From a bacterium (GTDB lineage: Bacteria; Patescibacteriota; Minisyncoccia; Phycocordibacterales; JAUSHB01): DNA of 45,537 bases. Made by a program: the position numbers and the translations under genes. The first letter of the stretch is position 1; every line of letters starts with the position of its first letter. The notes below the pieces were generated by a model. That model ran no database searches and was not told where the DNA came from. It was given only the letters and a program-made list of their open reading frames with translations. This document shows positions 20,975 to 25,332 of this stretch, in pieces. The DNA lies in assembly GCA_030648955.1 (NCBI GenBank), contig JAUSHB010000002.1, positions 1 through 45,537 of the forward strand. The letters run 5' to 3'.

Positions 20975-21490
20975 CTAATCCTTATTTTTTACGTGATATA
21001 TAGCTTTTTTGACGCGTAAAAACTGGGGACCATTATAAGCGATTTTACTTGTATCAAAGTCTTTTTTTACAAACGCAACCGTGATATGTGGCACATATTC
21101 AAATTTTTGAAATTCCGCAAAATGAGGGAATTTTTTTAATTCTTCGTGATATTTTTTAATATTATTTTCTTTGTCTTTTACAGAAAGATACAAAACTTTG
21201 TATTCCTGGTCCATGGGAGAAAAGACGCCAACCTTATCTATTTCTATATTTTCTAAATTCATGCTATCTATAAAATCCTGAATATCATCTTTTTTATAAA
21301 CAAGTTCTTCGTTAAATCCATAAAATAAGGTTAGGTGTAAATCGTCTGTCACATTACCACCATCAATTTTTTCTTTTTTTGAAATAAAATAAAAATCTCT
21401 ATCTTGTATAATTTTCGACCAATCTCTAACTAAATTTTTTTCTTTATCCGCAAAATAAACGGCGATGTAACCAGTTTTTTGTTTATCCAT
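20975..21490 (-). CDS. 2H phosphoesterase (2'-5' RNA ligase/cyclic phosphodiesterase-like)
   Basis: The 171-residue protein has the two H-x-T signatures of the 2H superfamily: HLT (52-54, DDLHLTLFYGF) and HIT (135-137, EYVPHITVAFV), spaced as in the LigT/ThpR fold. Such enzymes act on cyclic phosphates or 2'-5' bonds of RNA ends or nucleotides. Which substrate this one uses cannot be read from the sequence. It is 14 bp from the 60-residue gene and 36 bp from recO, so an operon with ileS is likely. The link to a histidine phosphatase domain in IleRS is notable. Confidence 0.82.
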   Translation of the reverse strand: MDKQKTGYIAVYFADKEKNLVRDWSKIIQDRDFYFISKKEKIDGGNVTDDLHLTLFYGFNEELVYKKDDIQDFIDSMNLENIEIDKVGVFSPMDQEYKVLYLSVKDKENNIKKYHEELKKFPHFAEFQKFEYVPHITVAFVKKDFDTSKIAYNGPQFLRVKKAIYHVKNKD

Positions 21491-21690: not shown

Positions 21691-24600
21691 TTATTTTCTC
21701 AAGCGCACCATGAACGTGAGATCATCGATGGTAATTCCTTCTCCCGCAGTCATTGCCGTAAACGCAATATCCTTAAGAAGACAGATTCGCTGTATGTCAT
21801 GCGCAAACGACTTGATAAGGTCTCCCCCGTTGTTGTCTGTTTGCACTTCCAAAACCGCGCGGTCTTTTGTGCTCAATCCTTCTTTTTTCCGCAGGTCTTG
21901 AATATTTCTTACAAATTCACGGAATTGCCCTTCTTTCTTAAGCTCTGGGGTAATTGTTGTATCAATCTCAACTTCACTTGCGCTACGAGCATCAAAAAGG
22001 ATTGCTTTTACATTCAATTCATCTTTAATCAACTGTAGCAATTCTTTATTATTTTTGATTTTTGATTTTTGATTTTTGATTTTGAGCGTAGCGATGGGTT
22101 GTCGCACCTTGATTCCCGCTTTCGCGCGCGCTTCGAGACCAAGCGATGCAATCGCCTTTGTTTCTACCATATCAACCACAAGACGTTTATCAAGAGTGGT
22201 CAACACACGTCCCTTGGGCCAGTTTTCAAGATGCACGCTTTGTGCGCTCTTTTTTTCTTTTACTTTCTGATACAGCTCCTCCGCAATAAAGGGCAAGGTC
22301 GGAGCAATAATTTTTGAGAACTCAAGCAAAACAAATCTCGTGGTCCCAAGCGCAGTTTTTCTATCGCTTGAAACATCGGACTTGAACCGATCTCGTGAAC
22401 GACGTAAATACCACGTAGAAAGATCGTCAACAAATTCTCCGATAGGACGCGTAGCATTATCAAGCTTGTAATCATCAAGTGAGTGCTCAATGGATGATTT
22501 TGTTTCATTAAGGCGTGAAAGAATCCATCGGTCAAGAATATTTTTACTCGTTCCTGTCGCTTTTACTGAAGAATCGGCATACAGTTCATAAAACGAAAGA
22601 ACATTGAGAAGCCGACCGATAACTTTCTTTTGAATTTCATCAACTCCTTTTTCGGAAAATTTAAGATCCTCACCACGCATAATGGGAGAAGATAGCATGT
22701 AATATCGGAGTGCGTCGGCGCCATACTTATTCACCATATCCTGCGGGTCGGGATAATTTTTAAGCCGCTTGCTCATTTTTTGTCCGTCTTCGGCGAGAAT
22801 AAGGCCATTCACGATAACATTTTTGAATGGGGTTTTGCCGAAAAGCCCCACAGAAAGGACGAGCATGTTGTAAAACCATCCTCGTGTTTGATCCAACCCT
22901 TCCCCAATAAAATCTGCCGGAAAATTTTTCTTAAACTCTTTTTTGTTCTCAAACGGATAATGAAATTGTGCGTACGGCATTGACCCTGACTCAAACCAGC
23001 AATCAAATACATCGGGAATGCGGCGCATTTCTCCCCCGCACGAACAGGGAAATTTTATTGCGTCGATGTAAGGGCGATGAAAGTCGAGTTCGTAGTCGGC
23101 GTTGTGGGGAAATGGACAGAATGGAACAGATATTGCTTGGGCATTTTTAAGAAAATTTTTCCCTTCCTGTTTTAATTCAGCCGCTTGTTCTGGTGTAAAA
23201 CCCTGACTTCCTGCAACAAGAGCCCATGAAGCATGGTCATGCCCAACAGTAAGAATATTTTTGTGAGAATTCTTACGATCAATTTCAAAGATAAATTCCA
23301 TTACCCTTCGCTTAACATCCATGAGATTCTCACCCTCTGGAGGAGTTTTATAGAATCTCTCTAGAGGAGAAGAGAAATATCCGTTATACTCCGCGTTTGT
23401 TTTTTTCTCAAACGTGCCAGTGTTTACTTCTCGAAGTCTCGCGTCAAATATAATGTTTTCGGAAGGTATCCCAATCTCTCGAGCTACAATTTCTGCCGTT
23501 TCTTTTGTTCGATAAAAATCAGATGAATATATAGTATCAATCTTTTTATTTCTAAGACTTTTCCCAGTTTTTATTGCTTGCCGTTTACCTTCTTCGGTGA
23601 GCTTTGAACCATTTCTCGGGTCATTGCTGACAACCGCAGATACATTATTCTCCGCTTGTGCATGGCGCATCACAATATACTGATTCCCTGATACTTCCAT
23701 ATTGTCCTGAAGCTCTTGTATAGAACCGACCACGATTTGTTTGCCACATCCTCTTTTTCCGCGTTGTTCCGCGTCAAGTCCGCGTTGGTCTGCGTTTATT
23801 TGACATTCCCATACCGGAAGCGGCGCGCCCCAGAATCGTGAACGGGAAATCGCCCAGTCTCGTGCTCCATGAAGCCACTTACCAAACCGCCCATGTTTCA
23901 TCGTCTCTGGAACCCATGTTACTTTATTATTTTCGGCAAGAAGTTTTTTCTTGATTGCTGTTACTTTTACAAACCACGATGATGCGGCGTAATTCAAGAG
24001 CGGAGTTTCACATCGCCAACAGTGCGGATACGAGTGCGTGATTTTCTGCTTATCAAAAAAAGTATTGTGCTCCTGAAGATATTTAATAACGGCAATATCT
24101 GCGGAAAGACGGGTTTTTTCGTCATCCGATTTTGGTTTCACCGACATTCCTGCAAAATCTTTAACTTCACCCGCGAATGTTCCGTCCATCCGCACATGCT
24201 GAACGAATGGAAGATGATATTTTTCTCCGAGCTTAAGGTCATCTTCGCCGAACGCAGGCGCGATATGCACGACTCCAGTTCCGCTTTCTGTTGTGACAAA
24301 TGATGCAGGATAGATTTTCCAGCCATTTTCGCGGTTTTTGAGTTTAATATCGTTTGAATAGTAATCAAAAAGTGGCTTGTATGATTTCCCGATAAGCTTC
24401 TTGCTTTCAAATTCTTCGATGATTTCATATTCTTCGCTATGAAACACGTCCGCAATACGGTCTTTCGCAAGAATATAGTATTCGTTATCTTTTAATTTTA
24501 CACCGTCATTTTGACTTTTGATTTTTGATTTTTTAATTTTGCTATAAACAATCTCCTCCCCCACCGCAAGCGCAACGTTCCCTGGCAATGTCCATGGCGT

Positions 24601-25332
24601 CGTCGTCCATGCAAGGACGTATGTTTTTGGCTCACTTGCCCCGTTAGAAGTAGGCTCTTTAGAGCCGCTAGTTCTAATGGGGTCAACAAGTTCAAATTTT
24701 ACCGTGACAGAAATATCGGCGATATCCTTATATCCATCCGCAACTTCATTGTTCGAAAGCGTCGTCTCGCATCGCGGACACATATGCATCGACTTGAATC
24801 CTTTATAGATAAGTTTTTTGTCGTAGAGCGTTTTGAATGCCCACCAAATGGATTCGCTATACGAAGCATTCATAGTTTTATAGCTATGCTCCATATCCAC
24901 CCATCTTCCAATGCGCGGGATCATTTTTTTCCAATCCGCATCATAGCGAAGGACGCTCACTTTTGCTGTTTCGTTGAATTTTTCTATTCCGAACTTTTCG
25001 ATATCTTTTTTGTGCTCAAGCCCGAGCTCTTTTTCAACCACATTTTCAAGTGGCAGTCCGTGACAATCCCACCCCCACACACGGCGGACAAAATTCCCTT
25101 TCATGGTGCGATAGCGCGGAATCACATCCTTCATAAAGCTAGTGAGAAGGTGGCCATAGTGAGGCGTTCCTGTCGCAAACGGAGGACCATCATAAAACAC
25201 AAAAGTTTTCTTGCCTTTTGTTTTTTTGAGCGTTTTTTCAAAGATCTTATTTTCGTCCCAAAATGCAAGGATTTTTTCCTCTCGTTCTGCGGTAGTAAGT
25301 TTTTTATTTTCTTGTTCCATAGAAATATTCAT
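21691..25332 (-). CDS. ileS: Isoleucyl-tRNA synthetase with inserted histidine phosphatase domain
   Basis: The product is a class I synthetase for tRNAIle. At 1213 residues it is well over the usual size (about 900-1050). HIGH is HYGH (58-61). The CP1 editing domain covers about 205-440 (TWTTTPWTLPGN-like segment at 242-252, GTGVVHIAPAFGEDD 351-365). KMSKR is at 852-856. The anticodon-binding domain follows. The zinc site is split: C510 and C529 lie before, and C763 and C765 after, a full histidine phosphatase domain at about 550-738. Four repeat-derived peptides are also inserted (219-233, 264-276, 512-528, 1084-1097). The start could be Met5 (25320). There is no stop or frameshift. It is first in an operon with orf60, a 2H phosphoesterase and recO. 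Confidence 0.96.
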   Translation of the reverse strand: MNISMEQENKKLTTAEREEKILAFWDENKIFEKTLKKTKGKKTFVFYDGPPFATGTPHYGHLLTSFMKDVIPRYRTMKGNFVRRVWGWDCHGLPLENVVEKELGLEHKKDIEKFGIEKFNETAKVSVLRYDADWKKMIPRIGRWVDMEHSYKTMNASYSESIWWAFKTLYDKKLIYKGFKSMHMCPRCETTLSNNEVADGYKDIADISVTVKFELVDPIRTSGSKEPTSNGASEPKTYVLAWTTTPWTLPGNVALAVGEEIVYSKIKKSKIKSQNDGVKLKDNEYYILAKDRIADVFHSEEYEIIEEFESKKLIGKSYKPLFDYYSNDIKLKNRENGWKIYPASFVTTESGTGVVHIAPAFGEDDLKLGEKYHLPFVQHVRMDGTFAGEVKDFAGMSVKPKSDDEKTRLSADIAVIKYLQEHNTFFDKQKITHSYPHCWRCETPLLNYAASSWFVKVTAIKKKLLAENNKVTWVPETMKHGRFGKWLHGARDWAISRSRFWGAPLPVWECQINADQRGLDAEQRGKRGCGKQIVVGSIQELQDNMEVSGNQYIVMRHAQAENNVSAVVSNDPRNGSKLTEEGKRQAIKTGKSLRNKKIDTIYSSDFYRTKETAEIVAREIGIPSENIIFDARLREVNTGTFEKKTNAEYNGYFSSPLERFYKTPPEGENLMDVKRRVMEFIFEIDRKNSHKNILTVGHDHASWALVAGSQGFTPEQAAELKQEGKNFLKNAQAISVPFCPFPHNADYELDFHRPYIDAIKFPCSCGGEMRRIPDVFDCWFESGSMPYAQFHYPFENKKEFKKNFPADFIGEGLDQTRGWFYNMLVLSVGLFGKTPFKNVIVNGLILAEDGQKMSKRLKNYPDPQDMVNKYGADALRYYMLSSPIMRGEDLKFSEKGVDEIQKKVIGRLLNVLSFYELYADSSVKATGTSKNILDRWILSRLNETKSSIEHSLDDYKLDNATRPIGEFVDDLSTWYLRRSRDRFKSDVSSDRKTALGTTRFVLLEFSKIIAPTLPFIAEELYQKVKEKKSAQSVHLENWPKGRVLTTLDKRLVVDMVETKAIASLGLEARAKAGIKVRQPIATLKIKNQKSKIKNNKELLQLIKDELNVKAILFDARSASEVEIDTTITPELKKEGQFREFVRNIQDLRKKEGLSTKDRAVLEVQTDNNGGDLIKSFAHDIQRICLLKDIAFTAMTAGEGITIDDLTFMVRLRK
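22042..22083. repeat. Repeat-derived insert in ileS (KIKNQKSKIKN)
   Basis: Tandem TTTTTGATTTTTGA units (minus sense AAAATCAAAAATCAAAA) encode residues 1084-1097 near the C-terminus. The same AT-rich pattern occurs in the ssb-rpsR spacer and at 24505-24543. Confidence 0.75.
23119..23685 (-). other. Histidine phosphatase domain inside ileS
   Basis: Residues about 550-738 of IleRS read as a complete histidine phosphatase (phosphoglycerate mutase-like) domain. The phospho-acceptor motif is MRHAQAEN (R556, H557, N562), YSSDFYRTKETA gives R608, LREVNTGTFE gives E635, and TVGHDHA gives the second catalytic H698. All four core residues (R, H, R, H) plus the acidic residue are present, so the domain is expected to be active. 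It lies between the catalytic-domain strand ending in WEC and the LDFHRPYID segment. Confidence 0.92.
23749..23799. repeat. Repeat-derived insert in ileS (INADQRG type)
   Basis: TCCGCGTTG-type units with 10-11-nt period (23758-23797) encode residues 512-528. They fall exactly between the two cysteines of the first zinc half-site, changing a C-x2-C into C510-x18-C529. Confidence 0.75.
24505..24543. repeat. Repeat-derived insert in ileS (SKIKKSKIK)
   Basis: AT-rich tandem units encode residues 264-276 within the editing domain. The pattern is the same as at 22042-22083. Confidence 0.7.
24639..24682. repeat. Palindromic insert in ileS (44 bp)
   Basis: CCCCGTTAGAA (24639-24649) and TTCTAATGGGG (24672-24682) are inverted repeats with one mismatch. 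Inside lies GGCTC-TTTA-GAGCC (24653-24666). It encodes IRTSGSKEPTSNGA, inserted before EPKTYVLAWTT of the editing domain. Confidence 0.8.

Follow-up and report, generated by a model that had tools for sequence, protein, structure and literature searches.

Isoleucyl-tRNA synthetases (IleRS) of the Thermus type (PDB 1ile) and of the IleRS2 type (8c8u) combine a synthetase core with editing and anticodon domains, and have a short loop in what we take to be the CP region, near the acceptor arm of class Ia synthetases. Histidine phosphatases (HPs) of branch 1 are known for acting on small molecules, and MutT1 of mycobacteria includes an HP half. MutT1 hydrolyses Ap4A (PMC7705103). An IleRS joined to an N-acetyltransferase is catalogued as NF040702 (ileS_w_GNAT), providing a precedent for a second enzyme domain in this synthetase. 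The window, meaning the whole stretch of 45,537 nucleotides analysed here, encodes an IleRS with the same core, editing and anticodon domains as 1ile and 8c8u, but with a 200-residue HP stretch where these hold their short loop, a position referred to here as site A. The features of the locus are as follows.

21691..25332, minus strand: ileS, isoleucyl-tRNA synthetase with inserted HP; single uninterrupted open reading frame, 1213 amino acids.
25150..25161, minus strand: class I HIGH-type motif HYGH, residues 58-61, read from the translation.
23746..23805, minus strand: first arm of the knuckle, running from C510 to C529 and enclosing a repeat-like stretch specific to the window, from the sequence.
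23089..23685, minus strand: the whole extra stretch, about residues 550-748, from alignment against insert-less IleRS orthologues.
23167..23676, minus strand: HP domain (His_Phos_1, branch 1), residues 553-722, from Pfam, the AlphaFold model and PDB matches.
23662..23667, minus strand: R556-H557 (RHA motif), phosphate-binding arginine and the histidine expected to be phosphorylated, from conservation.
23509..23511, minus strand: R608, phosphate-binding arginine, from conservation.
23428..23430, minus strand: E635, expected general acid/base, from conservation.
23239..23241, minus strand: H698, second catalytic histidine, from conservation.
23038..23046, minus strand: second knuckle pair, C763 and C765, from the sequence.
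22765..22779, minus strand: class I KMSKR motif, residues 852-856, from the translation and conserved alignment columns.
20975-21490: gene for a 2H phosphoesterase of the 2'-5' RNA ligase superfamily, lying between recO and ileS.

The initial annotation described the synthetase as one open frame of 1213 codons, which is confirmed, and R556, H557, R608, E635, H698, C510/C529 and C763/C765 all lie where it placed them. The HP insert that it assigned to residues 550-738 is real, although measurement against insert-less orthologues extends it slightly, and the RHG-type motif that it named is that of most relatives, the window having RHA. The proposed histidine phosphatase is recovered by Pfam in the inserted residues, with His_Phos_1 (PF00300) scoring E=1e-32 and 113.9 bits on the full protein and E=2.4e-34 and 119.2 bits on the HP stretch alone, against a curated cut-off of 21.7 bits, placing the domain within the branch 1 profile. 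It also carries the residue set of that branch, RH(G/A), a second arginine, a Glu/Asp acid and a second histidine. The surrounding protein belongs to the IleRS equivalog TIGR00392 (ileS, 873.2 bits against an NCBIfam cut-off of 621.4), consistent with its HIGH and KMSK motifs, anticodon-binding domain and IleRS core fold. In Pfam, tRNA-synt_1 starts at residue 21 and is broken by His_Phos_1, with Anticodon_1 at 934-1080; both tRNA-synt_1 and TIGR00392 align on either side of the insert. In the window genome (21 contigs, 0.97 Mb in all), IleRS is encoded by a single gene, and one further HP stands free elsewhere. Heptanucleotide repeats, (ATCAAAA)n, occur at 22051-22082 and 24516-24533, in frame within two IleRS loops; the repeat 14-mer has nine matches in the genome, four of them within ileS, and the repeat-like stretch in the first knuckle arm differs from these repeats.

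Structure prediction with AlphaFold yielded a complete HP fold for residues 544-756 (pLDDT 96.3, pTM 0.92), in line with the initial annotation, and the predicted fold is the complete alpha/beta fold of a branch 1 HP. The closest solved structures are the phosphoserine phosphatase PspA (4ij6, Z 23.1), GpgP (4qih, Z 22.8), mycobacterial hydrolase 1 (6s2q, 22.7) and PhoE (1h2e, 21.5), matches no more than 1 Z apart counting as tied, with phosphoglycerate mutase structures ranking lower at Z of about 20. A near-full-length model (residues 14-1213) reached pLDDT 90.9 and pTM 0.85, with confidence below 50 in two short loops only, one of which is the C510-C529 stretch (model residues 501-513). Against Thermus IleRS 1ile, the core of this model aligns over 799 residues with an rmsd of 2.1 and Z of 40.5. 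The models thus predict a complete PspA/GpgP/PhoE-like phosphatase seated on an intact IleRS core.

Assignment to a named HP subfamily was tested against NCBIfam models, with scores of 80.7 against 225 bits for 2,3-BPG-dependent phosphoglycerate mutase (dPGM; NF038349 and others), 63.7 against 350 and 64.1 against 277 bits for PspA (NF045917 and NF009994), 73.6 against 162.9 bits for the alpha-ribazole phosphatase CobC (TIGR03162) and 32.7 against 74.5 bits for SixA (TIGR00249). Since every named subfamily scores below its curated cut-off, no substrate can be read from the sequence. The SixA score bears on the idea that the HP acts on a protein or on phosphohistidine in a regulatory capacity, for which the precedent is SixA itself, a short HP that dephosphorylates Ndk in E. 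coli according to a passage of PMC12934123; with the sixA model so far under its cut-off and the top structural matches being small-molecule phosphatases, such a role is improbable.

The pattern of conservation indicates that the domain is very probably catalytically active, as far as can be judged from sequence. Every order member compared (46/46) has R556, H557, R608, E635 and H698 unchanged, and across 81 alignment rows the only departure is a single Asp at E635 (80/81). Because mean column identity over the HP region is 42%, these invariant residues stand out. Of the 144 inserts at site A, 142 have the full pentad (R-H..R..E..H), the exceptions being one Glu-to-Asp change and one broken pentad, and the set is likewise complete in all six HPs of valyl-tRNA synthetase (ValRS) and in 4/4 second-site HPs. 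In the broken insert (L158, genome G417) the Glu is gone and a Ser is aligned there, so that this is likely a decaying copy; the ValRS of the same genome (L196) carries an intact HP. For the closest pair (L147/L277, dS 0.52), dN/dS is 0.052 in the HP against 0.086 and 0.063 in the flanking synthetase, most other pairs lying near or at synonymous saturation. The gain of a phosphatase activity that had been proposed for this synthetase is thereby borne out as very probable, on the strength of the pentad and of purifying selection. The window's RHA motif is no lesion, given that Rv2135c of M. tuberculosis, which has RHA, is an active acid phosphatase with no mutase activity (PMC3866925). At larger distances HP sequence outside the pentad diverges more quickly than the synthetase does (in L276/L267, for example, 42% identity against 85% and 67%), so that no tight fit to the synthetase partner is visible.

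The insert is widespread. The order was sampled with 60 genomes, one per family and including the window's own, of which 58 gave an IleRS match; 54 of these carry the HP insert in the same place, the only plain IleRS (about 970 amino acids) being those of G021, G028, G052 and G053. In an even draw of 381 genomes from the phylum, the insert occurs in 16 of 17 other genomes of the window's order, in 9 of 15 from the rest of the class, and in at least 32 of 348 from other classes, as counted from listed matches and follow-up loci. Beyond Patescibacteria the survey was one scan, and its best 80 matches are nearly all labelled Patescibacteria or plain 'bacterium'. Named relatives among those best 80 profile matches are Nomura-, Yonath-, Taylor-, Kaiser-, Wolfe- and Vogelbacteria, together with Adler-, Zambryski-, Lloyd-, Campbell-, Taga- and Colwellbacteria, which places the window in Parcubacteria (Paceibacterota; phylum Minisyncoccota at NCBI). 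One match is labelled Spirochaetia (L072, genome about 0.4 Mb), and this label is probably wrong. The phosphatase-bearing IleRS is therefore real, old and common in a large group of Parcubacteria and relatives. The initial annotation had suggested a search of relatives for conservation of the form, and had named a chimeric join confined to this assembly as the alternative; the form proved conserved, and an assembly artefact is ruled out by the order-wide count. An inert structural insert or an assembly chimera could draw on the tolerance of the loop for insertions and on the broken pentad in G417, yet the same insert recurs in dozens of separate genomes with its pentad kept and with low dN/dS, making this explanation extremely unlikely.

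Gain and loss were examined on an IleRS tree built without the insert. Presence and absence require 10 changes on this tree, at least 7 of them forced by well-supported branches. Plain IleRS of the order (L038, L039, L041) are nested inside HP-bearing groups, a pattern that reads as loss, and the sequences indicate that the HP domain has been lost several times. Conversely, L143 is HP-bearing amid plain IleRS relatives, which reads as gain or transfer, and the HP of L018 belongs to a different subgroup than the HPs of its close IleRS relatives, suggesting a domain swap. Genome G226 has an IleRS without the insert and a free HP (L255:3662-4252) that groups among the IleRS HPs, has Asp as its acid residue and ends where the inserted domain ends; it is possibly an excised copy, and the genes neighbouring it are uninformative.

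The initial annotation also held that the domain is hung on the zinc knuckle. The two cysteine pairs do flank the loop in the window protein (C510/C529 and C763/C765), as in the Thermus-type knuckle, so the placement between them stands. The zinc part of the claim fails, because about 20 HP-bearing IleRS relatives do not have the four knuckle cysteines; zinc as a requirement for the insert is thereby ruled out.

HP domains are not confined to site A. They occur at four positions in IleRS, two of which are shared with ValRS. In family f136, two IleRS HPs are present in about a dozen of the sampled genomes, the second lying within the second cysteine pair (examples are L155-L157 and L199), L149 (G413) has its second in the linker preceding the anticodon domain, and the 1569-residue IleRS L198 (G289) has three, none of them at the window's site. 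HP-bearing ValRS were found in six genomes, with the HP at the site equivalent to the window's in five (L194, L195, L196, L204 and L206) and after the DTWFSS motif in L197. Such ValRS are rare in the window's order, occurring in G034 and G011 among the relatives searched, plus G271. Whatever the source of the sequences, four IleRS positions mean several insertion events, and the synthetase-HP pairing is a recurrent bifunctional form rather than a one-off oddity. Since HPs also lie elsewhere, including the linker preceding the anticodon domain, not every case can call for a fixed site next to the active site, and the HPs in that linker are unlikely to lie there. Resolution in the HP trees is poor. 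A single clade of ValRS HPs is rejected (p-AU 0.013), while a single clade of all synthetase HPs (p-AU 0.31), a clade of site-A IleRS HPs with the G226 free HP (p-AU 0.36) and tandem duplication in f136 (p-AU 0.25) are not rejected. A serine-hydrolase domain is present in L195 and L196 too, accompanied in L195 by a HAD domain; because the loop also takes a serine hydrolase, and one ValRS has a HAD domain, the insertion region may simply tolerate insertions.

Genome context offers few clues. Many loci share the order argS-ileS-recO (48 and 55 of 80), with only argS upstream and recO, together with a DUF11 protein gene, downstream being conserved neighbours of ileS. As a clue to function an operon partner is ruled out, since argS-ileS-recO offers none and the 2H phosphoesterase gene next to ileS in the window is not conserved in relatives across the 80 loci. 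This gene would have favoured a tRNA-end phosphatase stripping a 2'- or 3'-phosphate, or a cyclic-phosphate product, from acceptor ends before charging, a role for which the presumed position of site A near the acceptor arm would also be suitable; the variability of the gene, the small-molecule substrates of branch 1 HPs and the presence of HPs ahead of the anticodon domain make this very unlikely.

The metabolic setting was considered in the 60 genomes of the order. Cofactor-independent phosphoglycerate mutase (iPGM) is missing from 47 of them, the window's included, and enolase from 32, of which 26 keep the HP insert, four do not have it and two have no IleRS match. The IleRS HP is the sole HP of the genome in G054, G014, G030, G175 and G180, while G028 and G053 have no HP anywhere and an insert-less IleRS. 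A glycolytic dPGM carried by IleRS would fit the frequent absence of iPGM and the fact that dPGM_arch is the best NCBIfam match of the HP stretch. It is nevertheless a very improbable explanation, given that every dPGM model lies far under its cut-off, that PspA, GpgP and PhoE outrank the dPGM structures, and that most enolase-less genomes retain the insert, the sole HP in G054 and G014 being that of IleRS. Substitution for a pyrophosphatase is rejected; a family I PPase is encoded in the window genome itself, and PPase, found in 35/60 genomes, does not track the presence of the insert.

The HP is most likely a small-molecule phosphomonoesterase tethered to isoleucine/valine aminoacylation. 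The reading we favour, held tentatively and somewhat short of even confidence, is a bifunctional enzyme in which a complete IleRS is combined with a working HP of the PspA/GpgP/PhoE type and removal of a phosphomonoester is tied to Ile/Val charging. The HP would sit in the CP/zinc-knuckle loop, leaving the synthetic, editing and anticodon-binding parts complete. By the chemistry of the superfamily, R556, R608 and H698 would grip the substrate phosphate, H557 would accept it to form a phospho-histidine, and E635 would protonate the leaving group, after which water would free the phosphate. The substrate would probably be a small soluble phosphomonoester, and the HP would most likely clear a phosphorylated compound, possibly nucleotide-like, that IleRS/ValRS either produce or are slowed by. 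The tie to charging is inferred from the repeated association of HPs with IleRS and ValRS, and the concentration of HPs in these two editing synthetases over four positions suggests a link with both. Counted against such coupling are the faster drift of the HP, the linker HPs, the acceptance of other domains by the loop and the dispensability of the HP, which follows from the four order genomes without the insert, at least three of them with an IleRS nested among HP-bearers. More broadly, a phosphatase step may form part of isoleucine charging, and in places of valine charging, in Parcubacteria and other Patescibacteria, with HPs recruited repeatedly in cis for the disposal of a phosphorylated product, inhibitor or signal of the two editing synthetases; we regard this as possible, though clearly doubtful. 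To our knowledge, no aminoacyl-tRNA synthetase has such a quality-control or regulatory activity.

The main competitor is an independent phosphatase simply carried by IleRS, in which the HP does a household job of its own, for example on a serine, sugar or nucleotide phosphate, the loop tolerating the insert and IleRS being always expressed. Such an enzyme would account for the five genomes in which the IleRS HP is the only one, for the rapid drift outside the pentad, for outright disappearance of the insert, and for G226, where a free HP of the IleRS group accompanies an insert-less IleRS. HPs are moreover fused to other proteins in the phylum, namely an MFS transporter (L200), a VTT membrane protein (L201), a 2-hydroxyacid dehydrogenase (L202) and a NUDIX protein (L203). 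The four IleRS and two ValRS positions and the near-universal presence in the order's IleRS argue instead for a link with both synthetases, and insert-less G028 and G053 have no free HP as replacement. A carried phosphatase is a possibility that we would put at roughly a third, almost as probable as a tethered phosphomonoesterase linked to charging. In a well-studied enzyme class, the IleRS of a large order seem nearly all to carry a conserved second enzyme. If the HP acts on charging, translation would include an extra catalytic step across much of bacterial diversity; if it is carried, streamlined genomes (mostly <1.2 Mb) would be parking metabolic activities inside essential proteins.

The tethered phosphomonoesterase reading finds its nearest counterparts in PspA (4ij6), GpgP/Rv2419c (4qih) and PhoE (1h2e), which share the fold throughout the domain (about 183 residues superposed at rmsd 2.1-2.4) and have an identical catalytic residue set. 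The window HP differs from these in being inserted in a synthetase, in its 23-27% identity to them and in belonging to no named NCBIfam subfamily. MutT1 and the NUDIX-HP fusion L203 are comparable in joining an HP to a nucleotide-related enzyme, although the window IleRS has no NUDIX domain. NF040702 differs in the enzyme added, and the window protein matches it only through the shared IleRS parts (344.6 bits against a cut-off of 1999). The initial annotation knew of no described IleRS of this form, and the open-access full-text literature (PMC) yielded no account of a histidine phosphatase within IleRS or ValRS. The parts belong to known families, and an IleRS with another enzyme domain is already catalogued.
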